A DNA stretch of 37,495 nucleotides from Kiritimatiellia bacterium. GTDB taxonomy: Bacteria > Verrucomicrobiota > Kiritimatiellia > RFP12 > UBA1067. Below the pieces are notes generated by a model that saw only the letters and a list, made by a program, of their open reading frames with translations, did no database searches and was not told where the DNA came from. The position numbers were made by a program, and so were the translations under genes. Where the stretch lies: assembly GCA_017450695.1 (NCBI GenBank), contig JAFSTA010000102.1, positions 1 through 37,495 of the forward strand, given 5' to 3'. Shown here piece after piece: positions 10,041 through 37,495 of this stretch. Position 1 is the stretch's first letter; each line of letters begins with the position of its first letter.

Positions 10041-13000
10041 TCAACGCACGCTCACGTCCCACGTCGCGGCGGGCTTGGCGAGTTTCGCGACACCCGTGCC
10101 CTCGCCGTCCACGACCACGCCCGTGACCTTCACGGTGTACTTCTTGAGCTTGCCGCCCTGGAGGGCGTAGAGCTTGAACGATCCCTTGAAGAGGCCGGTC
10201 TTCGGCGTGTAAGTCAGCTTCATCGCGGAGAGGTTCGGCTTCTTCGGGTCGGTGTAGCCGCTCAACACGCCCTTCGCGTACTTGATGGACGCCGCCTTGT
10301 CGAACGCCCACTTGCCGCCTTTTGCGCGGACCGGCTCGCCGTCCGGCAAAAGGGCAGTAATCGTCCCTGAAGGCAATGCCCCGCGTTGTGTCACATAAAC
10401 GTTTGCGGTAGAGCGTTTCCACTTCCCACCAATGGTCATGTCCACCATCTTGTAAGAGGCGTTCTCCAACTTAAATGTTCCATTAAGTGCCAAGTCCGTA
10501 TTCATACTGAACATCATCGAACCAATCGGTTTCTTAAAAACAAGTGTAGCATGTGAAGTCGTGTAATCCCATATATTGAGATTAGTTGCCTTTGCCGTTA
10601 CTGAACTTGCCTTTCCGTTCACAATCAATGTCGCCTTCGCGGAAAGTTTCACGGTTCCCTTACGACTATTTATCTTGCCCGCTTTCAATTGTACAGTTCC
10701 GACAAGGAATCCGCCACTATCGAGCAGGGCCGTCGTGACAGTCTGGGCTTTTTTAAAGGTGGAATCCAACTTTCCTGAATAGGTTATATCCTCCACGTCA
10801 TCCATCGAATAAGGAACGGCAACATCACCGATACTACCAGAAGTTCCTTGCGGCAGTTCGCCAGCATAATTCCGAATCGTTCTACCGCCATAGGTAGGCC
10901 ATGCATTGGGCAGTTCAACCGAAGAATTTTTCCAGCCGGTCGATCCGAAAGGAACATAGCTTACAAGATCGGAACGGGCATCGCAGTACGGCGACGATTC
11001 GTCGGGATATGTAGATGAAGCTTGTTCCAACCGGGGTGCGTTCCCTTTAAAGTACACTTCCCTCATGGGGGTTTCGAATACCGTCTGTTGCGGACCGAGG
11101 TAGGCAAGCGTTGACGGGAGTACAAGCACCTCGACGCCGGTTCCCATAAACACGCCGAACTCAACAGTGTTCACACCTTCCGGAACTTCAAATACCCCTT
11201 TGAGCGACTTACAGAAACAGAACGCCCACGAATCGATCAGCTCCAATGCCGAACCAGAACTAAACATTACGTTCGTAAGCGAAGTACATTCATAGAAAGC
11301 ATAGTGCCCGATCGTCACAAGCGTAGACGGGAATCGAACAGAGGTAATTCCAAGTCCCTCGAACACATACGGGAAGATATGCGTGACTCCTTCGGGAATA
11401 ACCACATCCGTTACTCCGTTAAGTTCGATGTCTGTCAGTACTCCATCCGCAGAGATATTCCATTTTATTTTGTCGATAGGATATTCACCGCTGGCAGCAT
11501 ACTCAATACGAATCCCGTTCCACGTTCCGGGAATGGCAACACCCCAACCTGTCGATCCACGTTTGACATACGCGGTACAATCATCAGAGACTTTTTCAAA
11601 CGTAGAAGATGTAGCGGCGGGGGCATTCCCTTCAAAGTTAATGGACGTGAGTGCCGTACATCGTGCGAAAGCGACAGCATCTAGATTCCTTACGCTACTC
11701 GGAATTGTCATGTCCGTCAGCATACGACAACCGTTAAACGCAGCATTTCCGATACTCGTCACACCATTCGGGATTGTGACACCTGTCAATCCCGTACACT
11801 CATTAAAAACGCAATATTCGATTTTCACCAAAGATGTAGATAGTTTTATGGTTTTCAACCCTGTACAATTTGAGAACGCACCCTCTCCGATATGAACAAC
11901 ACTGTTCGGGATAATTACCTCCGTCAGTCCAATACACTCGTTAAAGGCAAAATTTCCAATCGCCGTAACGCTTGTAGGAATGATGATACTCATCAATACG
12001 CTAAATCCGTCGAACGCATTGTCACCAATTGTCGTCACGCCGTCAGGAATCAAGACATTCCCGTTAATCCCCTGAATGATGGTTTTTCCGTCTTTCGTCA
12101 GCAAAATACCATCCAAGGAAGAATAGGCTGGATTACTTGCGGTAACGGTTATCGATAGCAACTCGGCACAACCAGTAAATGCAGCCCGCCCAATATCGAT
12201 CACATTTTCGGGAATCGTTATATTCGTCAGTCTTGTGTGTGAGAACGCATACTGCCCGATACTCGTCACACCGTTAGGTATCGTCATGCTCGTCAAACCG
12301 CTACAGCCTTCAAACGCATGGTCCCCGATACTCGTCACGCTGTCGGGGATCGTCACGCTCGTAAGCCCCTTAGAGTCCTCGAACACCCCCTCACCAATAC
12401 GTGTCACGCCGTCCGGTATCGTCACTTCCGTGCAGCCGTTCAAATCGACAGCCGTCAAGACACCGTTTTCAATCGTCCAAATCGGCTCGTTTTCTGGATT
12501 CGCGTTTGTTGTCCATTTCGCGTACAGTGTCGTCGCAGTTGTCTTGTCCCATGCCCGTGTACTCGCACCGGTCGCGGTGTAGTACTGCGTCCCGCTTCCG
12601 TTCGTACCGGACCAATAACCCCCGAACGTGTAACCGCTCCGCGTCGGAATCGTAATCGACGGCATCGCGCTTCCGTACGTAGCCGTCACGCTTGCCGTAC
12701 CCCCGCTTCCGTTCTGCCGATCCAATGTTATGGTGTACGTGTTTGCCGTCCAGAACGGGTAGAGGGTTGCCGCCGCGTTGGCAGTGTAGATTCCTGAAAG
12801 ACCGTACATTTGCGTGCCGCCGTCGCTCGTCGCCCACCCCGTCTGCGTATAGCCCGTGCGGGTAAAGATTGCCCCCTTCAACGTCAACGACACGCCGTGT
12901 GTCTTGGTCGCCGTCTGCTGCGACCCCGTCCCGTATGCACCGGGGCTGTACGTCACCGTGTAGGTGTTCGCCGTCCATTTCGCATAGAGCGTTGTCACGA

Positions 13001-13865
13001 TTGCCATGTTCCATGTCCGCGCACTTGTTCCGGTCGCGGTGTAGTACTGCGTCCCGCTTCCGTTCGTACCGGTCCAGTAGCCGCCGAACGTATAGCCGCT
13101 CCGCGTCGGAATCGTAATCGACGGCATCGCGCTATCGTATGTTGCGGTCACGCTTGCCGTTCCCCCGCTTCCGTTCTGCCGATCCAACGTGACGGTGTAC
13201 GAGTTCGCCGTCCAGAACGGGTAGAGGGTTACCGCCGCGTTGGCAGTGTAGGTTCCTGAAAGATCGTACGCTTTCGCGCCACCGTCGCTCGTCGCCCACC
13301 CTGTCTGTGTATAGCCCGTGCGCGTGAAAATCGCGTCCTTCAACGTCAGCGACACGTCTTTTGTCTTGCTGTCGGTCTGTTCAGCGCCGGCACCGTTCGT
13401 TCCGGGGTTATACGTGACCGTGTAGGTTTGCGGAGACGATTGCACAACGGCAAGCAGAAGCCCCGAAATCGTCGAACCGGGATTCGGGGCAAGCAACGTG
13501 TCCACGTTCTCGCCGTCCAGCGTAATCGATGTGGGGGTAAGCACTTCCGTATCCGGCGTTCCCGTCCTCCAAACCTTCAGCGTGAGCGCGGTATCCTTCG
13601 CGGCATAGAACGTGAATTCCAGTTTCGACTGGAACACTTCACCGTATCCGCAGAATACGGTTCCATCCGTACCTTCGCGGAAGACCGCGACGGCGTCACC
13701 CTCTGCGGCGGCCTGTCCGTCGAACGTCAACGTGACGTTCTCGTAGGTCGTCGGGGCGAGCATATCCTCGTTCCTGACATCATCCTCGTTCCAAGGAACG
13801 CCGTATGAGACCTTCCCTGCGAAGAGTGCGAAACACATCATACAGACACGGGCAAACGTTTTCAT
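10041..13865 (-). CDS. Exported mosaic surface protein: module N, InlB B-repeats, BspA-type LRRs
   Basis: 1274 aa from ATG 13865, chosen because AAAAAGGAGA lies 6 bp upstream and a signal peptide follows (MKTFARVCMMCFALFAGKVSYG). Order: module N (about 35-135), nearly identical to that of the 511-aa neighbour; four InlB/Flg_new-type B-repeats (about 140-455: YTFGGYW, TLYAKWT, TLYPFWT); a WTIENGVLTAVDLNG linker (about 460); BspA/LRR_5 repeats of about 23 residues (CSGLTSMTIPNGVTSIG type); a CTAYVKRGSTGWG element (about 763); more LRRs; and a C-terminal beta-rich module ending near LTYTPKTGLFKGSF (about 1217), shared with the 511-aa protein. BspA LRR and InlB repeats occur in adhesins and host-interaction proteins; a surface adhesin role is inferred. 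It starts 25 bp after the previous gene. Starts at 13883 or 13901 are possible but less well placed. Confidence 0.85.
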   Translation of the reverse strand: MKTFARVCMMCFALFAGKVSYGVPWNEDDVRNEDMLAPTTYENVTLTFDGQAAAEGDAVAVFREGTDGTVFCGYGEVFQSKLEFTFYAAKDTALTLKVWRTGTPDTEVLTPTSITLDGENVDTLLAPNPGSTISGLLLAVVQSSPQTYTVTYNPGTNGAGAEQTDSKTKDVSLTLKDAIFTRTGYTQTGWATSDGGAKAYDLSGTYTANAAVTLYPFWTANSYTVTLDRQNGSGGTASVTATYDSAMPSITIPTRSGYTFGGYWTGTNGSGTQYYTATGTSARTWNMAIVTTLYAKWTANTYTVTYSPGAYGTGSQQTATKTHGVSLTLKGAIFTRTGYTQTGWATSDGGTQMYGLSGIYTANAAATLYPFWTANTYTITLDRQNGSGGTASVTATYGSAMPSITIPTRSGYTFGGYWSGTNGSGTQYYTATGASTRAWDKTTATTLYAKWTTNANPENEPIWTIENGVLTAVDLNGCTEVTIPDGVTRIGEGVFEDSKGLTSVTIPDSVTSIGDHAFEGCSGLTSMTIPNGVTSIGQYAFSHTRLTNITIPENVIDIGRAAFTGCAELLSITVTASNPAYSSLDGILLTKDGKTIIQGINGNVLIPDGVTTIGDNAFDGFSVLMSIIIPTSVTAIGNFAFNECIGLTEVIIPNSVVHIGEGAFSNCTGLKTIKLSTSLVKIEYCVFNECTGLTGVTIPNGVTSIGNAAFNGCRMLTDMTIPSSVRNLDAVAFARCTALTSINFEGNAPAATSSTFEKVSDDCTAYVKRGSTGWGVAIPGTWNGIRIEYAASGEYPIDKIKWNISADGVLTDIELNGVTDVVIPEGVTHIFPYVFEGLGITSVRFPSTLVTIGHYAFYECTSLTNVMFSSGSALELIDSWAFCFCKSLKGVFEVPEGVNTVEFGVFMGTGVEVLVLPSTLAYLGPQQTVFETPMREVYFKGNAPRLEQASSTYPDESSPYCDARSDLVSYVPFGSTGWKNSSVELPNAWPTYGGRTIRNYAGELPQGTSGSIGDVAVPYSMDDVEDITYSGKLDSTFKKAQTVTTALLDSGGFLVGTVQLKAGKINSRKGTVKLSAKATLIVNGKASSVTAKATNLNIWDYTTSHATLVFKKPIGSMMFSMNTDLALNGTFKLENASYKMVDMTIGGKWKRSTANVYVTQRGALPSGTITALLPDGEPVRAKGGKWAFDKAASIKYAKGVLSGYTDPKKPNLSAMKLTYTPKTGLFKGSFKLYALQGGKLKKYTVKVTGVVVDGEGTGVAKLAKPAATWDVSVR
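12505..13436 (-). repeat. Two tandem ~466-bp units inside the 1274-aa gene
   Basis: 12505-12970 and 12971-13436 are highly similar in DNA. Each unit encodes two different InlB-type repeats (a TLYPFWT type and a TLYAKWT type), so the duplicated unit is a pair, not a single repeat. Frame is preserved. Confidence 0.75.
13460..13759 (-). repeat. 300-bp near-identical module N, copy 1
   Basis: This segment matches 19108-19407 (same length, same strand) with roughly ten substitutions by eye. It encodes the 100-residue module N (PTTYENVTLTFDGQ onward) of the 1274-aa protein. Flanking sequence diverges at once, which points to recent duplication or gene conversion. Confidence 0.85.
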
Positions 13866-19548: not shown

Positions 19549-20003
19549 TTACTTATCGAACGTGATAGTCGCGGCTTCGTTCGCCTTCAGCCAGTACCCC
19601 ACGCCCGGCGACATCTCGGTCAAACGTCCGCCGCTCTGCGGCGTCCAGCGCTTCGTTCCGGAGACGACGCTTGACACGATTCCCGCATCCGCCGCGCTCT
19701 TCAGGACCGTCCCCGGATCGCCGCTTTCCAACAGCGGGTAGCCGATCAAGTTCCAGCCTGCGTTCAGCGTGATTTCGACCTCTTCGTCAGGCCTTCCCGT
19801 AACCGTCCACGACACGTTGTCTTCCGTGGTCTTCACCCAGTAGCCAACCCCGATCTTCAACTCCGTGAGACGCCCGCCATTCTGCGGCGTCCAGCGTTTC
19901 GTGCCGGAGACGACGCTCTGAATCTTGTCCGCCACATCGCCGAAGACCGCTTCGGGCGAAGGATCGTCGGGGAGCGCATTGAACGAAATCAGATTCCATC
20001 CGC
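19549..20003 (-). repeat. 455-bp duplicated C-terminal tandem module, copy 2
   Basis: Partner of 13891-14345, forming the last 150 residues of the 1511-aa protein. Confidence 0.85.
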
Positions 20004-23000
20004 TCCTCTCGACGGTGATGACCTGCGACACCGTATCCAAGACAGTAATCGATACGCCCGAATAGTCCTCCCCCGGTTTCTGCGTAACGTACGAACCCAC
20101 GGCATCGAGAACCGCGTCCTGCGGCGTGCCGAAAACCCAGGCCTGCCAGTAAATTTTCGTCCCCTCGAATGCCGACACGCAGATATCGAGCTTTCCGTTA
20201 TTTTCGACAACGCCGTATGCCCGCAAGACACCTTCCGAATCATATCCCGCAACACAACTGCCGACTGGAGCGGCTTCACCGAATACGGAGAGCGAAACAT
20301 TCACCAGCCAGTTCGGGGGCAGCAACGCGGTATCCTCGTCGCCGATAATCGGATCATCGCCCCAGGGACTTATGGTGGAATCCGTATAATATTTGAAGAC
20401 TGTACTCGCATTGGTGGTCATACTGCCCGTAACTGCGTATTCGCCATAAGACGGTTCGGTCGTCGATCCATCCAAGAGCGAATCGCCCCCTGCTTCATCA
20501 TCCGCGATATGCGTAAACGTCACGCCGTTGGCGATACAGGTTCCTCCCGCCTCTACCACCAGGCTTGCGTTCTTTGCAAATTTCACGACGGCTCCGTCCT
20601 CGATCGTCAAAGTCGCGTTGGACTTGACGATATACTCGCCCACTATCATATTGATGACATCTGCACTCCAGGTGATGTCCTCTGTCGCCCTGTCTAGTCT
20701 AAGCCTGACATTGTCCGCACTCCCCTGTACACGTACCTGCGTCCAAAATGGAATGGTGTGCCCTTTCCATCCTGAATACGGGGTCTCGAAATTCAATGTT
20801 TCAGGAATTCCGGAAAAGACTATTTCCGCCAAGTTGCTACAGGCATAGAAAGTACCGCTCCCGATTTCCGTTACGGTTGCCGGAATCGAGGCCTTTGTCA
20901 CTGATTGGTTCTGGAAGAATGAATCGGATGTGAGCGATTTCGTCCCGTCCGCATAAACCACTTCAAAACCGTTCTCGCCGCAATAGACAAATGCCGCAAT
21001 ATCGACAAATGAAAGACTAGCGGGAAGGACAATCCGTGAAAGTGCCCTGCAACCCCCAAAAACAGTTGCGCCCACGGTCTTGACACCTTCCCGAATGGTC
21101 ACATCTTTCAGCGAAACACACCCTGAGAACATACTGTCGCTAAGACCATATTCAAAAGTCGAAGGGATGACAACCTTCTCCAACCCTGTGCAGTCCCGAA
21201 AGGCGCCGGCAAAAGCCCAGTAATTATACGCATACATTTCCGGTCTTGGGCATTTCAAACCTTCCGGCAAGATTAGTTCTTTCAATGACGTACATCCCGC
21301 GAACGCTTCCGGCGCCCGCTGTACACCTCTTCCGAAGGAAAGTTCTTTCATCCCCACGCACTTTGAGAATGCCCCATAACCAATATTTGTGACCGTATCT
21401 GAAATAATAACGCTTGTGATGTTACTACACTGACTGAAAGCATACTCACCAACTACAAGAACTCCATCCGGTATTTTAATCTCCCCAGAAAGTTGCCCAC
21501 AACGATAAAAGGCATAGTCCCCGACATTGGTAATGCTATTCGGCATCGTCACGCTCGTCAGACCGCTACAATTGATAAACGCCCTATCTCCGATACTTGT
21601 CACACTATCAGGAATTGTCACGCTTGTGAGCCCTCTGCACCCGCCGAATGCAGCATTCCCAATTTCTGTCACGCCTTCTGGTATCGTCACGCTCGTCAGA
21701 CCGCTACAACCGGAGAACGCACCCTCGCCAATACTTGTCACCGAGTTCGGTATCGTCATGCTTGTCAAGCCGCTACAACCGTAGAACGCATTACGCCCGA
21801 TACTCGTCACACAGTCGGGCATCGTCACGCTCGTCAGCCCGCTACAGCCGTAGAACGTACTATTCCCGATGTTCGTTACACCGCCCGGTATCGTCACTTC
21901 CGTACATCCGTTCAGATCAACCGCCGTCAAGACACCGTTTTCAATCGTCCAGATCGGTTCGGGAGTCTCTTCTCCGTCGATATACGCAATGTTAATCCCG
22001 TTCCACATTCCAGGAATATCAACGTCCCACCCCGTCGAGCCACGTTTGACATATGCAGTGCAACCTTCACACACCTCGGAGAAAGCAGTCGTTGAAACCG
22101 CAGGAGCATTCCCTTCAAAGACCAGATTGGTCAATCCGCTACAAAAAGCAAACGCATTGTCTCCAATGTTCGCCACGCGATCAGGAATCGTTACCGCTGT
22201 TAATTTGTGACACCATTGAAAGGCATCGCTACTAATATTCGTTACCGCATAGGGAATCGTGATCGCCGGTATTTCAGAACACCCGTCAAAGGCAGCCGGT
22301 CCAATGTTCGTCACACTTGGCGGAAGGCTAATTCCTGACAGAGCGAAACAGTCGTAAAAAGCACCGCCCTCAATGCTTGTCACCCCATTCGGAATCTGGA
22401 TCGACTGCAATTTGAAACAATGAGAAAAAGCTTGAATTCCGATTTCAGTAACGCCAGACGGAAGCTCTACTTCGATCATTTTTTTGCACCCGTAAAACGC
22501 CGAACGGCCGATGCTGGTTACGCTCGATGGGATTTCAATTGACTCCTTTTGGGACGGACAGCAAAGTAACTTCGTGTACGCCTTATCGTAAAGTACGCCA
22601 TCGAGTGTTGCATAGATCGGGTTTCCGTCCTCAACCTCGATTTCCGTCAATTTCTCGTTTGAACCATAACCATTCTCAAAGAATGCATAGTAGGGAATGT
22701 TCGTCACGCTTGCAGGAATTATCACCGTTGTCTTCATACCGGGACACCAAATCAACCGGGTGCAATGCTTGTCATACAATACACCGTCAATCGATGTATA
22801 GCAGGGATTGTCGGGTACAACATCAATTCTCTCCAATTTTGCGCATCCCTCAAACGCATGATCCCCGATGCTGGTCACGTTAGCAGGAATCGTAATCTCC
22901 GTCAGGCTGTCACTGTAGCCGAAGGCCTTTTCGCCGATATTCGTGACTGCCGCCGGAATGTTTACACTCGTTAGTTTCCTGCAGCTGTACAACGCGAAAT

Positions 23001-24084
23001 CATCAATATCCCTTAAACTTTCAGGGAGGATAATCGACCTAAGGTTGTAACACTCTTCAAAGGCGCTATTGCCAATACGAGCCACGCCCTCGGGGATCGT
23101 CACGGACTCAATCTGCCGACAGCTACGGAAAGCCCATTCTCCGATTTCCCTGACCGGGCAATACCCGTATACGTAACTTGGAACCACCAGGCTACCAGTC
23201 GTTGATCGGTCAACGGCCGGATAATAGTTCAAGCCCGTCGCCCTGCCCCCTCCGATGGATGCAACGCAATCCGTAAGCTTGTAGGTCCAATTCGTGCCGT
23301 CTATCGTCTCTGTCCAGATTCCGTCCGACGGTAACACGACAGGAGCACCCGCCGCAAGAAGAAGCTTCATCAGCCGTAGCATTTCTGCCTGATCGCCATA
23401 AATCGCTTCAAGGGAATCACACCCATCAAAAGCTTTAAATGCAATACTCTCTAGCGTATTCGGTAACGTAAGTTCTTTAAGTGAGATACAGTTCTGGAAC
23501 GCATACTCGCCGATGTGTATCACAGAATCGCCTATCGTTACGCTCATCAGACCACTACAAGCTTTAAATGCATTATCCCCGATTTTTATGACGGAATCGG
23601 GAATTGTTATGTTTTGCAGACTACTACAAGCACCGAATGCAAAATCCCCTATGTTCGTTATTGAGTTTGGCAGCGTTACATTCGTTAAGCAACTACAGCC
23701 ACAAAAGACCGACCTCTCTATGCGCGTCACTGTATCAGGGATCACTATGTCTGCTAGTCCACTACAATTGAAAAACGCATACGCCCCGATATTCGTAATT
23801 GAATCCGGGATTACCACATCCGTCAATCCGCTACAATAGTAAAACGCATAAGCACCGATGCTTGTCACGGGAAAACCACCAAGCGTAACGGGAATACTGA
23901 TTGCGCCAGTTTTCGAGGTCGGGACAGCCCCATCATAAGAATTCCCGGAACCGAGCGATGCCTCGCCGTTTGAAACGGTATAGGTCCACGTAATACCGTT
24001 GACCGTCTCCGTCAATGCATTTGCGGAGGTAACCGTAAATGCGAAAATGGTTACGGTCACAAACTTGATTAAGCTCTTTTTCAT
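19549..24084 (-). CDS. Very long exported BspA-type leucine-rich-repeat protein
   Basis: 1511 aa from ATG 24084, preceded by AAAAAGGAG (8-bp spacing) and followed by a signal peptide (MKKSLIKFVTVTIFAFTVTS). Residues about 60-690 and 708-1150 are dozens of BspA/LRR_5 repeats (CSGLTSVTIPDSVTSIGDRAF type), split by a WTIENGVLTAVDLNG linker that also occurs in the 1274-aa protein. Around 1190-1250 is a short beta-helix-like stretch (TLTIEDGAVVKF). Residues about 1255-1350 form a divergent module N (GTPQDAVL replaces GTPDTEVL). The tandem GWNL module closes the protein (1360-1511). BspA LRRs in other bacteria bind host proteins or other microbes; that role is inferred here. It lies 44 bp after the upstream 246-aa gene. 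Starting at 24171 would overlap that gene and lose the signal peptide. Confidence 0.87.
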   Translation of the reverse strand: MKKSLIKFVTVTIFAFTVTSANALTETVNGITWTYTVSNGEASLGSGNSYDGAVPTSKTGAISIPVTLGGFPVTSIGAYAFYYCSGLTDVVIPDSITNIGAYAFFNCSGLADIVIPDTVTRIERSVFCGCSCLTNVTLPNSITNIGDFAFGACSSLQNITIPDSVIKIGDNAFKACSGLMSVTIGDSVIHIGEYAFQNCISLKELTLPNTLESIAFKAFDGCDSLEAIYGDQAEMLRLMKLLLAAGAPVVLPSDGIWTETIDGTNWTYKLTDCVASIGGGRATGLNYYPAVDRSTTGSLVVPSYVYGYCPVREIGEWAFRSCRQIESVTIPEGVARIGNSAFEECYNLRSIILPESLRDIDDFALYSCRKLTSVNIPAAVTNIGEKAFGYSDSLTEITIPANVTSIGDHAFEGCAKLERIDVVPDNPCYTSIDGVLYDKHCTRLIWCPGMKTTVIIPASVTNIPYYAFFENGYGSNEKLTEIEVEDGNPIYATLDGVLYDKAYTKLLCCPSQKESIEIPSSVTSIGRSAFYGCKKMIEVELPSGVTEIGIQAFSHCFKLQSIQIPNGVTSIEGGAFYDCFALSGISLPPSVTNIGPAAFDGCSEIPAITIPYAVTNISSDAFQWCHKLTAVTIPDRVANIGDNAFAFCSGLTNLVFEGNAPAVSTTAFSEVCEGCTAYVKRGSTGWDVDIPGMWNGINIAYIDGEETPEPIWTIENGVLTAVDLNGCTEVTIPGGVTNIGNSTFYGCSGLTSVTMPDCVTSIGRNAFYGCSGLTSMTIPNSVTSIGEGAFSGCSGLTSVTIPEGVTEIGNAAFGGCRGLTSVTIPDSVTSIGDRAFINCSGLTSVTMPNSITNVGDYAFYRCGQLSGEIKIPDGVLVVGEYAFSQCSNITSVIISDTVTNIGYGAFSKCVGMKELSFGRGVQRAPEAFAGCTSLKELILPEGLKCPRPEMYAYNYWAFAGAFRDCTGLEKVVIPSTFEYGLSDSMFSGCVSLKDVTIREGVKTVGATVFGGCRALSRIVLPASLSFVDIAAFVYCGENGFEVVYADGTKSLTSDSFFQNQSVTKASIPATVTEIGSGTFYACSNLAEIVFSGIPETLNFETPYSGWKGHTIPFWTQVRVQGSADNVRLRLDRATEDITWSADVINMIVGEYIVKSNATLTIEDGAVVKFAKNASLVVEAGGTCIANGVTFTHIADDEAGGDSLLDGSTTEPSYGEYAVTGSMTTNASTVFKYYTDSTISPWGDDPIIGDEDTALLPPNWLVNVSLSVFGEAAPVGSCVAGYDSEGVLRAYGVVENNGKLDICVSAFEGTKIYWQAWVFGTPQDAVLDAVGSYVTQKPGEDYSGVSITVLDTVSQVITVERSGWNLISFNALPDDPSPEAVFGDVADKIQSVVSGTKRWTPQNGGRLTELKIGVGYWVKTTEDNVSWTVTGRPDEEVEITLNAGWNLIGYPLLESGDPGTVLKSAADAGIVSSVVSGTKRWTPQSGGRLTEMSPGVGYWLKANEAATITFDK

Positions 24085-24128
24085 TTTGCGTACTCCTTTT
24101 TGTTCGTTTGCCGAAATCGAAAAATAAC

Positions 24129-24869
24129 CTACTTCCCGAAGATGTCGTAGATGTGTTTGCAGGAATCCCACGACTCGCGGGCTTTCGTGCCGCTTCTGGG
24201 CGGGTTGGACGGGCTGAACGTGTCGCCCGTCTCCTTCAAGTACTGCTGTCTGGCGTAGGCTCGCGCCTGCCCGGCGTTGATCCGTGCTTGCGTGTCAAGC
24301 GTCCGAAGTTCGGCATCCATACGTTGTATGAGCCGATTGTAATGAGCCTTGAGTTCGTTGAGATTTCGCATCGACTGCGCGTACGGCATCTCCATCACAT
24401 AGTCCAGCACGCCGCCGCCCCCGATCAGATCCTTTACGCTGAATTTGGACGGAAGGTCGTCGCTACGCATCTTGGCGAGCAGCTGCACCGCCCTCGCCTC
24501 ACACCCCCCGCCGAGCTGTGAACCATATCTCAAGATATGGATCGTTTTTTCAAGCGTCGATTTCGCCATCGCCGGATTATCGTCATTCCAGTACAACATG
24601 GACAAGCAAAGCATATCTGACGCCCGGTTGAAATCCGGTCCACCCGAAGAATTCACAAGGTCCCGCCCGGCGCAGACGGCGGCATACCACCTCCCCTGCC
24701 TGATGGCGTCATCACGCTTGTCCGCCTGGGAAAACGTCTCGTTGAAATTCATACCGCCGCCGAGTGAGCTCAAGAAACCGTCCATCTCGGCGACTCCCGC
24801 CTTTGCAAGCGAAACAGCAAACATCACGGTTGAAACCGCAGACACCGCCATCCTTCGTACACGTTTCAT
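24129..24869 (-). CDS. Exported protein of unknown function, first gene of the surface-protein operon
   Basis: 246 aa from ATG 24869 (GAAGG 9 bp upstream; a signal peptide MKRVRRMAVSAVSTVMFAVS follows). Upstream in-frame ATGs at 24878 and 24902 are possible, but earlier sequence belongs to a foldback element and does not look coding. The mature part starts with a Gly-rich stretch (FLSSLGGGMNFNE) followed by TPR-like helices (about 50-120: DDAIRQGRWYAAVCAGRDL, AKSTLEKTIHIL). A second Gly-rich loop (DLIGGGGVLD) and a helical, charged C-terminus follow. It may be a periplasmic helper for the larger exported proteins, but nothing in the sequence proves this. I do not recognise the family. Confidence 0.7.
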   Translation of the reverse strand: MKRVRRMAVSAVSTVMFAVSLAKAGVAEMDGFLSSLGGGMNFNETFSQADKRDDAIRQGRWYAAVCAGRDLVNSSGGPDFNRASDMLCLSMLYWNDDNPAMAKSTLEKTIHILRYGSQLGGGCEARAVQLLAKMRSDDLPSKFSVKDLIGGGGVLDYVMEMPYAQSMRNLNELKAHYNRLIQRMDAELRTLDTQARINAGQARAYARQQYLKETGDTFSPSNPPRSGTKARESWDSCKHIYDIFGK

Positions 24870-25633: not shown

Positions 25634-26067
25634 ACCTTTCCTTCGCGTCTCTGTGACTCCGCGTGAGATCCCAAACGAGGAATCCGGAATCACTGCTTCC
25701 CCAACTATCTACCTTCCACGAAGTGCGCTTCGCGCATCTGCATTTCTATGCGGGATTGCTGAAACATCCGCCTCTTTTGCATACGATACCCCGCAGGTTC
25801 AAAACATATGTTTTTTTGTTCATCAAAACCAAGGAATCCGCCTGCCCGATGTCACGACTCGTCAGGCGCAACGTCTTCAATACAAAGAACACAAAGGGGC
25901 GGAATAATCCTTGTGATCTTTGTAGCCCTTGCGGCAAAGCCTTGATGTTCACGCCGTCTCCGGTCGCGACGGGGCGCTACTCTCCCGTTGTGTCGCGGTC
26001 GTTCCCGTTCTATAAGCGGTCGCGCGGCAGCGCGATCCTCTCCCCAAAGTGCCGATCCGTCACGCGA
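25634..26067. other. Gene-free stretch beyond the DUF1846 gene end
   Basis: No convincing gene. It contains a foldback of CACAAAG-type repeats at 25881-25924 and a GGTCGCGAC copy at 25962-25987. Confidence 0.55.
25881..25924. repeat. Foldback built from CACAAAG-type repeat
   Basis: Left arm TACAAAGAACACAAAGG and right arm CCTTGTGATCTTTGTA pair with one mismatch and one bulge around an 11-nt loop. The arms are the same repeat family as 25457-25483, here in inverted arrangement. Confidence 0.65.
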
Positions 26068-35020: not shown

Positions 35021-35084
35021 ACGTAAATTCCTCTGTTGAACAAAAAACCACGGAAGACACGGAATAAGTCGAATCGCTAGTAAC

Positions 35085-35266: not shown

Positions 35267-35343
35267 TGGTGGGCCCTGCAGGACTCGGACCTGCGACCTA
35301 GAGATTATGAGACTCCAGCTCTGACCAACTGAGCTAAGGGCCC
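35267..35343 (-). tRNA. tRNA with CAU anticodon, most likely tRNA-Ile2 (lysidine type)
   Basis: The 77-nt cloverleaf is complete: acceptor GGGCCCT/AGGGCCC, D arm GCTC-AGTTGGTCA-GAGC, anticodon loop CTCATAA, T arm GCAGG-TCCGAGT-CCTGC, and encoded CCA. The body follows E. coli tRNA-Ile2 (CAU) closely: acceptor, D arm, and the GGUCGC variable region. That argues for AUA-reading isoleucine tRNA, whose C34 is modified to lysidine, not elongator Met. Position 31-39 would be a U-U mismatch. The initiator hallmark of GGG/CCC pairs in the anticodon stem is absent, so it is not tRNA-fMet. Confidence 0.92.
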
Positions 35344-35387: not shown

Positions 35388-35568
35388 GCTGAAAATTGAG
35401 GTGCCGACCGGTCTCTCGTCCCCTGTCCCACGTCAATGGCAATCGACAAACCAGTCGCCTACGTTCACGCGAGAATGCACAGAGGCGCTACGAGCCAGCC
35501 GAGAAGCCGTATGTCGCGTATCGCATCTCCGCAATGCATATCCGGCTTACCCAGCTGAACCTAGATTC

Positions 35569-35696
35569 CTCGTTTGGGTTCTCACGCAGAGCCGCTGAGG
35601 CCGCAGAGTACGCAGAGTAATTGCCGAAAACAGAGGCTTTTCGATCCCCCCACGTAGCTTACGACAGAAAACGGATTCACCCAAATGGTGAAAGTC
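35569..35696 (+). repeat. Long dispersed repeat, copy 1 (128 bp, TTTGGGT...ACCCAAA ends)
   Basis: It matches 37180-37291 over its whole length. Near the ends TTTGGGT (35573-35579) and ACCCAAA form short inverted ends. Inside are four 9-bp units of the CGCAGAG type (35584-35619); the second copy has three. Confidence 0.8.
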
Positions 35697-35724
35697 AGAA
35701 AAAATCAAAAGTTCCATGATTCAC

Positions 35725-35801
35725 CACGGAACACACGGAATTCACGGAATCGCCGTTCCAAGAAACGGATGATTTTCTGTGTATTCCGCGTGTTCCGTGG
35801 T
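35725..35801. repeat. CACGGAANN 9-bp array in a foldback
   Basis: Three units CACGGAACA, CACGGAATT and CACGGAATC (35725-35751). The arm 35723-35745 pairs with 35779-35801 with two mismatches around a 33-nt loop. Confidence 0.7.
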
Positions 35802-36036
35802 TTTCAAAGTGTCCAACAGCGGAATTTAGGCGTAACACACCCAGCACGCCCTTTCGGGCTTTTCTAGAAATTCTGAGTTCTGAGCGAAAGGGGAACGGTA
35901 CAAACCCTGATCGCGTAAATCCCTTCTATCGCGTCTGTCCCTTTACGCCTTGCCTATCAGTTCCGACTTGCCCCGCCGTCATCAACATCATTCCCATGCG
36001 GCACGGCCAGACCACTGCCTCACCTTGTTTTTTCCT

Positions 36037-36064: not shown

Positions 36065-36092
36065 TTTCCCGTTGTTTAACAAAGGAGCTTGT

Positions 36093-36971
36093 ATGAATCT
36101 TTCACGTCGTTCATTTTTGGGAGGCGTCGCCGCGACTGCCTCTTTGCCGTTCGTTTCTTTCGGTGCCGAGCTTCCGAAAGCGAAAGTCGCCGTGCAGTTG
36201 TATTCTGTTCGGGACCTGATCAAAAAAGAAGGTCTGGAAAAAGTCTTGAAAGAGGTCAAGGCCATCGGATATGCGGGCGTCGAGTTCGCCGGATACTGGG
36301 GCAAGGATGCCAAGACGATGAAGTCGCTGTTGGACGACAACGGTCTCGTCGCCTGCGGTACGCACATCGGCAGACTGGAACTGGGCCCCGACAAGATCCA
36401 GAAAACGATGGAATACAACCTGGCAATCGGCAACACCCATTTGGTCTGTCCCGGCGGTGGAATGCAGCCCGGAAAGGACTATACGGGAACCCGCGAGGAT
36501 TGGTGGAAGAAGATGGCCGAGTTTTATTCGGTCGCCGCCGAGACGGCGAAAAAGAGCGGTTGCACGGTCGGCTACCACAATCACCAGTGGGAGTTCAAGG
36601 AGAAAGTGGGGCAGATGACCATGTGGGAATACTTCTTCTCCAATACGCCGGCTGGCGTTTGCATGCAACTGGACGTCGGCTGGTCCGTGACGGCTGGAAC
36701 CGATCCTTGCTCCTGGTTCAAGCGGTTCCCCCGCCGGTCTCCCTCGCTGCACGCGAAGGAAGTGTTTGCACGCGGCGCACCCGGAATCGTCGGACAGCCC
36801 GGCAAGTTGCCTGACGGCACGCCCCGCAAAGGTGTGGACTGGGACAAACTTTTCGTGACGACCGATCTGGATGGCGTGAAATGGTATGTCGTGGAGTGCG
36901 AGACCAATCCCGCCTCCTTGCTATCCATCACGGAAAGCTTCGCCTTCCTGCATCAGAAAGGCCGTTGCTAG
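36093..36971 (+). CDS. Tat-exported sugar phosphate isomerase/epimerase-like protein (xylose isomerase-like TIM barrel)
   Basis: 292 aa. ATG 36093 has AAAGGAG 7 bp upstream; a TTG at 36072 precedes the ribosome site. Residues 1-25 form a twin-arginine signal (SRRSFLGG plus a hydrophobic stretch ending VSFGA). The rest is a xylose-isomerase-like TIM barrel (PF01261): AVQLYSVRD (33-41), AGVEFAGYW (61-69), GYHNHQWEF (160-168), MQLDVGW (191-197), SLHAKE (218-223) and VVECE (266-270). Likely metal ligands are E64, H162/H164, D194, H220 and E268. Periplasmic members are common in sugar-degrading PVC and Bacteroidetes bacteria. The exact sugar is unknown. It stands as a single gene between repeat regions. 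Confidence 0.88.
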   Translation: MNLSRRSFLGGVAATASLPFVSFGAELPKAKVAVQLYSVRDLIKKEGLEKVLKEVKAIGYAGVEFAGYWGKDAKTMKSLLDDNGLVACGTHIGRLELGPDKIQKTMEYNLAIGNTHLVCPGGGMQPGKDYTGTREDWWKKMAEFYSVAAETAKKSGCTVGYHNHQWEFKEKVGQMTMWEYFFSNTPAGVCMQLDVGWSVTAGTDPCSWFKRFPRRSPSLHAKEVFARGAPGIVGQPGKLPDGTPRKGVDWDKLFVTTDLDGVKWYVVECETNPASLLSITESFAFLHQKGRC

Positions 36972-37112: not shown

Positions 37113-37172
37113 CTCCCTTCGGAGAAGCGATACTCTTGTCGCTTTTTGGCGGCTCGTCAATTTAACCATTTA
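37113..37172 (+). repeat. 60-bp repeat with UUCG hairpin and AAGCGACA stem, copy 1
   Basis: It matches 37436-37495 with about ten differences. It has a CCCTTCGG start and then a stem of GAAGCGA with TCGCTT. Confidence 0.65.
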
Positions 37173-37179
37173 ACCTAAT

Positions 37180-37291
37180 CTCGTTTGGGTTCTCACGCAG
37201 AGCCGCAGAGTACGCAGAGAAAGTGCCGAAAACAGAGGCTTTTCAATTCCCCGCACACACAGAAAACGGATTCACCCAAATGGTGAAAGTC
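37180..37291 (+). repeat. Long dispersed repeat, copy 2 (112 bp)
   Basis: Partner of 35569-35696. It lacks one 9-bp CGCAGAG-type unit and about 7 bp further on. Confidence 0.8.
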
Positions 37292-37344
37292 CGTCTTGTT
37301 CTGGAGAGCCGTTCTTCTTCCTGGTTCCGCCTGTTTTCTTTATG

Positions 37345-37365
37345 ACCTTTGCGTTCTTTGTGGCT
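37345..37365 (-). repeat. Reverse-orientation CACAAAG repeat
   Basis: The reverse complement reads AGCCACAAAGAACGCAAAGG, sharing AGCCACAAAGA with 25454-25464. Confidence 0.55.
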
Positions 37366-37405
37366 GAAACCGAATTTCACCAGAGGATTCTAGTGTGGTT
37401 TAATC

Positions 37406-37435: not shown

Positions 37436-37495
37436 CTCCCTTCGGGGAAGCGACACTCTTGTCGCTTGTCGGCGGCGCGTCTATGTAACCATGTA
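37436..37495 (+). repeat. 60-bp repeat with UUCG hairpin and AAGCGACA stem, copy 2
   Basis: It contains CCCTTCGGGG and a perfect 8-bp stem AAGCGACA/TGTCGCTT with a CTCT loop. It reaches the window edge and may continue. Confidence 0.65.

Follow-up and report, generated by a model that had tools for sequence, protein, structure and literature searches.

A family of miniature inverted-repeat elements with probable IS1380-like ancestry in a Kiritimatiellia bacterium

A dispersed repeat present in two copies in a 37,495-nucleotide stretch of DNA from a Kiritimatiellia bacterium (contig JAFSTA010000102.1; hereafter the window) is, with a probability that we put at about 0.88, a gene-less miniature inverted-repeat transposable element (MITE) related to an IS1380-like insertion sequence (IS), and would be moved in trans by the transposase of such an IS. 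This reading, drawn from sequence comparison, places the dispersed repeat in a concrete transposon type, and points to an IS1380-like parent as a possible source of a MITE with more than 100 copies.

Copies in the window and the wider family

The preliminary description of the window had reported copies of the repeat at 35569-35696 and 37180-37291, and we found them at exactly those coordinates. It had also stated, correctly, that they differ by one 9-nt unit of a CGCAGAG array and by 7 nt further along, and that they flank an isomerase-like gene. This gene (36072-36971, + strand; AP_endonuc_2/PF01261, 3e-11) is open, encodes a xylose-isomerase-like TIM barrel and is not part of the element; its deletion by recombination between the two copies is possible. 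The sequences TTTGGGT and ACCCAAA, which had been taken for the ends of the repeat, are both present but internal. Similarity between the oriented copies extends well past both intervals, and since the element starts with CCTAGATTCCTCGTTTGGG and ends with CAACAGAGGAATTTAGG, we rejected TTTGGGT/ACCCAAA as termini. The true ends lie further out, CCTAGATTCCTC... on the left and ...GAGGAATTTAGG on the right, and ACCCAAA forms part of an internal palindrome, TTCACC-CAAAT-GGTGAA.

With its termini located by similarity, copy 1 is a full element of 271 bp (35560-35830, + strand). Its left terminal repeat, CCTAGATTCCTCGTTTGGG (35560-35578), resembles the transposase-downstream end of the L153 IS described below, and is followed by a CGCAGAG-type 9-bp array of about 4 units (35584-35619; Tandem Repeats Finder). 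The internal palindrome (35676-35692) resembles one in the transposase-side end of the IS, and is followed by a CACGGAA-type inverted array (35723-35801) with arms at 35723-35749 and 35775-35801 that are 89% complementary, and by the right terminal repeat CAACAGCGGAATTTAGG (35814-35830), with 1 mismatch to the consensus; all these parts lie on the + strand. Its flanks, CTGAA and CGTAA, agree in 3 of the 5 bases, so that a duplication is either decayed or absent. A tRNA with a CAT anticodon (35267-35343, - strand) lies just upstream.

Copy 2, also on the + strand and with located termini, spans about 37174-37398; 3 nt are missing from its left end, and about 4 extra nt stand ahead of the last G at its right end. 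It carries a CGCAGAG-type array of about 3 units (37195-37220; Tandem Repeats Finder), the internal palindrome (37271-37287) and a right half of the CTTTGCG/CTTTGTG type. The copy is flanked by TTTAA on the left (37169-37173) and on the right (37399-37403), the right target being valid only on the premise that the extra TGTG belongs to the right end. Another repeat brackets copy 2 (37113-37172 and 37436-37495, 87% identical, 323-bp spacing), with the contig ending inside it, and locus L011 on contig C130 has its near flanks in common with copy 2.

Sequence similarity further revealed an inverted remnant of a third copy, consisting of the right terminus and CACGGAA units (35022-35077, - strand), and an inverted relic with a degenerate left terminus and the start of an array (25657-25688, - strand; 5 mismatches over 32). 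Elsewhere in the window, a 462-bp unit is tandemly present twice (12511-13427) in a region covered by a minus-strand open frame of 1286 aa, and BspA-type leucine-rich repeats lie in a 1540-aa open frame (19549-24171, - strand).

The inner palindrome, with at most 3 mismatches, was found at 118 places in the 5.03-Mb genome and at none in a reversed control, and the right terminus at 146 places against 0 in the control. A search with the core gave at least 40 places at 81-100% identity (40 scored of 387 first-look candidates), and 93 distinct cores come from fetched loci. Of the 118 palindrome places, the first 100 were listed. The family is bounded by CCTARATTCCTC-type terminal inverted repeats. 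Copies with both ends (39, 41 or 41, depending on the end criteria used) were analysed as a set of 41; they are 184-449 bp long and contain no transposase gene. The preliminary description had looked to further genomic copies with common ends: many further copies with common termini are present, and neither a lack of further copies nor a lack of common ends was seen. Its proposal of a small non-autonomous element with a variable array also holds, given the many copies, their target duplications and an array of 1-6 units. Among the first 100 palindrome places listed, 12 begin less than 60 bases from the start of a contig, and the family may explain part of the assembly breakage. A second architecture in the same genome (L226) has inverted CGCAGAG arrays and GTTAT duplications, its ends having been chosen with a bonus for matching flanks.

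Across the order, 27 of 161 genomes contain the right terminus; the control gave a total of 6 matches. One genome of the same genus (G001) has 16 right termini; 4 of the 15 loci fetched from it have both ends, with a duplication of 5/5 in L243, L248 and L251 and of 3/5 in L245, under the same flank-match bonus. At 2 mismatches, the right terminus was not found in two other genomes of the genus (G002 and G003). In another genus, L062 in G019 is a full copy that, judged by eye, is flanked by TTTAA on the left and on the right, and in G076 ends of this kind enclose CGCAAAG arrays in a 130-bp element (L261) with a duplication of 2/5 (flank-match bonus). Because the end searches for the putative parent IS and for G001 and L226 gave a bonus to matching flanks, the duplications from those searches are not independent evidence.

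Target duplications and uninterrupted sites

In a first test, in which the ends were placed by terminal similarity alone, the 5 bp on either side matched exactly in 10 of 41 copies; shuffled flanks gave a mean of 1.37, and none of 2000 shuffles reached 10. An overlapping, re-collected set showed an exact 5-bp duplication in 12 of 41 copies against 1.45 expected (0/5000 shuffles), the other 29 having none, and for copies with well-kept ends the figure was 8 of 17 against 1.19 expected (0/5000 shuffles). Target duplications, proposed earlier as a check, are thus present among the copies at a frequency above that of shuffles. The target consensus is WTSAW: all 17 well-kept left targets have A at position 4, and 16 of them have T at position 2. 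These two nearly constant positions contribute little to the matching evidence; outside the 5 bp, in both directions, the flanks match at the background level, and inside them the excess lies at positions 1, 3 and 5. Two pairs of copies (L007/L118 and L010/L081) have flanking repeats in common and are perhaps not independent.

Several copies were compared with uninterrupted copies of the host repeats in which they lie, so that these empty sites are paralogous ones, within other dispersed repeats of the same genome, and not orthologous sites in another strain. When the flanks were joined with one copy of the target, L081 matched the uninterrupted sequence of L086 over 200 of 200 positions (90.5%), L118 matched L088 over 62 positions (95.2%), and L030 matched L081 over 101 positions (82.2%); L085 and L090 also belong to these matches. 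The targets at the uninterrupted sites are ATCAT, ATCAA and TTGAA, each a single 5 bp where the filled sites have two. Other copies of the host repeats differ at the target itself (L133, L049 and L116 in the first case, L087 in the second). Some MITE copies share flanks because they lie within further dispersed repeats, which are multicopy in their own right. One such repeat, with CACGCAAAGTCCGC motifs (L010, L081, L086, L030 and others), hosts several MITE insertions, and appears to have been amplified together with some of the MITE copies.

An IS1380-like relative and competing explanations

A complete IS1380-like IS is present in a relative (L150/L153 on G029:C76; 100% identical to L180 of the Kiritimatiellae MAG RGIG5952, and taken to be the same place), with the termini CCTAAATTCCTCTGTTGGG and CATCCCAAAAGAGGAATTTAGG. 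In L153, CCTAAATTCCTCTGTTGGG lies on the transposase-upstream side and CCTAAATTCCTCTTTTGGG, read inward, at the other end; the right and left ends of the MITE, CCTAAATTCCTCTGTTGG and CCTAGATTCCTCGTTTGGG, show the same asymmetry. The terminal inverted repeats are therefore common to the MITE and the L153/L180 IS, which resides in a relative and not in the MITE's own genome. The duplication of the L153 IS itself (TTCAA/GTCAA) matches at 4 of 5 positions. Its transposase scores above the gathering score of PF13701, and its best NCBIfam model is NF033539 (IS1380), at 140 bits. Among four IS transposases, three exceeded the PF13701 gathering score, and these three gave 140-159 bits with NF033539, for which the cut-off is 180. 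Sequences with a CCTA left end form 25 distinct loci, counted by eye (from 62 given to the script, leaving out duplicates, L169 and loci without that end), and 11 of these have perfect 5-bp duplications, under a scoring that favoured both features.

An alignment model built from three transposases of this type matched 20 of the 161 genomes at E <= 1e-20. An intact cognate transposase was not found in the MITE's own assembly, where this model matches only contig C198. The IS1380-like gene there is truncated at the contig edge, with 29.6 bits against NF033539, and was rejected as a direct partner because its terminus differs (CCTAAGCGTCGCAGTTG). L136 was likewise rejected (NF033539, 21.7 bits; no close CCTARATTCCTC end by script).

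Similarity at the right end continues past the terminus, above the level of shuffles, in the short copies L007 (z of 3.6 and 3.7 against two IS ends) and L129 (2.8 and 2.2); the longer L118, in which the stretch tested contains CACGGAA units, showed none to these two ends (-0.9 and -0.1). Comparison of the left interior of the MITE with the IS beyond its terminus gave no clear match (best z 2.3). In the L153-type IS, a CACC-n-GGTG palindrome is located 76 bp in from the transposase-upstream end, and the MITE keeps a similar one, which in L007 starts 62 bp from the right end (by eye). By eye, and with no control for chance, 21 of the 25 distinct CCTA-left-end loci have such a palindrome inward of the transposase-side end, at 75-77 bp from the IS end in 15 and at 87-99 bp in 6; L188, L193, L197 and L210 lack it. 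The pair of bases that immediately flanks the palindrome is T-A in 12, G-C in 3 (L151, L184 and L185) and mismatched in 6, so that covariation is hinted at only. The conserved subterminal palindrome of this IS1380-like group is a directly testable feature.

In the mechanism that we propose, an IS1380-type transposase would act in trans on the gene-less element, recognising its terminal repeats and presumably cutting and rejoining with a 5-bp stagger. The retained palindrome may act as a second recognition site or as a regulatory site, and the CGCAGAG and CACGGAA arrays would have been acquired as cargo, with slippage, hairpin deletion and recombination altering them.

Other origins for the family were weighed against this one. 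If the repeat had spread through recombination, gene conversion or a different kind of mobilisation such as REP/RAYT, no transposition with target duplication would be involved; the mosaic right halves and the flanks that some copies share inside multicopy repeats fit such a process, yet the 5-bp duplications stand well above shuffles and uninterrupted sites with a single target occur in three target contexts, which makes this origin extremely improbable. RAYT-driven REP insertion is not known to leave target duplications. Alternatively, the transposase that mobilised the element might belong to a different family, also giving 5-bp duplications. Such duplications are not unique to IS1380, those of Tn3-type miniature elements being 5-6 bp (PMC4133298), and the assembly yielded no intact cognate transposase; the IS1380-like IS nevertheless resembles the element closely in both asymmetric termini and in the subterminal palindrome, which renders this very unlikely.

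That the repeat is a structured RNA or a regulatory element which selection maintains at each site, transposition being only a past event, is improbable, but some observations favour it. The copy 1 transcript would fold with a z of -5.5, far better than shuffles (0/200), and in a rough comparison 6 of 14 junctions fall in an open frame of 150 codons, whereas 35 of 42 left-flank control positions do, a sign that the insertion sites seem biased to non-coding DNA. However, inverted arrays fold strongly without any selection on RNA, the copies are decayed and mosaic, and at the gathering threshold Rfam matches nothing in the window but the tRNA.

Internal arrays and comparison with known systems

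The CGCAGAG array varies by 9-bp units, the range of 1-6 units being the script's rough motif count. The right halves of the 41 two-ended copies fall into a class with a CACGGAA inverted array (20), a short class (8), a CTTTGTG/CTTTGCG class (5) and others (8). Copies are decayed and their right halves mosaic, and remnants such as ccacggtttttc in L029 and L117 suggest deletion across a hairpin.

The array pattern occurs at 194 places in the MITE's own genome and in 59 of the order's 161 genomes, and the rows contain no match of the control. Among the 24 exact array places listed for the own genome, 11 adjoin a palindrome place among those listed; by eye, 11 of the remaining 13 have a MITE-like left end just upstream, which is degenerate in two of these 11. 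Inspection by eye of 17 array loci from relatives revealed a left end in L062 and L063, a partial one in L061, L073 and L074 and none in the rest, and a MITE-like left end was seen in 0 of 7 array loci from five other genomes. Since arrays occur elsewhere without MITE ends, they are not confined to the MITE, and the inner CGCAGAG array looks like acquired cargo. At L280 (G079:C189:2600-3800), an inverted pair of CGCAGAG arrays lies in frame within a 373-codon open frame with YD-repeat-like sequence, and at L147 (G050:C492) a CACGAAG-type inverted array directly adjoins the end of an IS1380-like IS. By their titles, the matches listed in our literature searches held nothing relevant to the 9-bp array sequences. 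A more speculative and rather doubtful extension is that 9-bp-period arrays (CGCAGAG, CGCAAAG and CACGGAA) are an independent class, captured and swapped as cassettes by IS1380-like MITEs, with the palindrome kept as a second conserved recognition site.

Among the matches listed, and in the available parts of PMC4133298, PMC3542288 and PMC10969869, no MITE was assigned to IS1380. Judged by title, none of the matches listed describes an IS1380-type MITE in Kiritimatiellae. ISEcp1 is a member of the IS1380 family. It has the inverted repeats IRL CCTAGATTCTACGT and IRR ACGTGGAATTTAGG and 4-5-bp direct repeats (PMC7864471). The window element is similar in its termini (CCTAGATTC... and ...GGAATTTAGG) and in direct repeats of this length (PMC7864471), and its putative parent IS encodes a probable IS1380-like DDE transposase. 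Unlike ISEcp1 and IS1380, the element lacks a transposase gene, measures about 0.2-0.45 kb and occupies more than 100 places in the genome. The Tn3-derived miniature elements known as TIMEs (TIME1-3, 262 bp) are also thought to be mobilised in trans and make duplications of 5-6 bp, but have 38-bp Tn3-type termini and are usually present in a single copy, as far as the available text describes them (PMC4133298). The nearest MITE with a minisatellite in the literature searched appears to be BrickBuilt of Porphyromonas gingivalis, which resembles the window element in its internal minisatellite, IS-matching termini and intergenic location, and, in the part of the source available, differs in having 23-nt units, IS5-type termini, 19 copies in ATCC 33277 and duplications of irregular length (PMC4596501).
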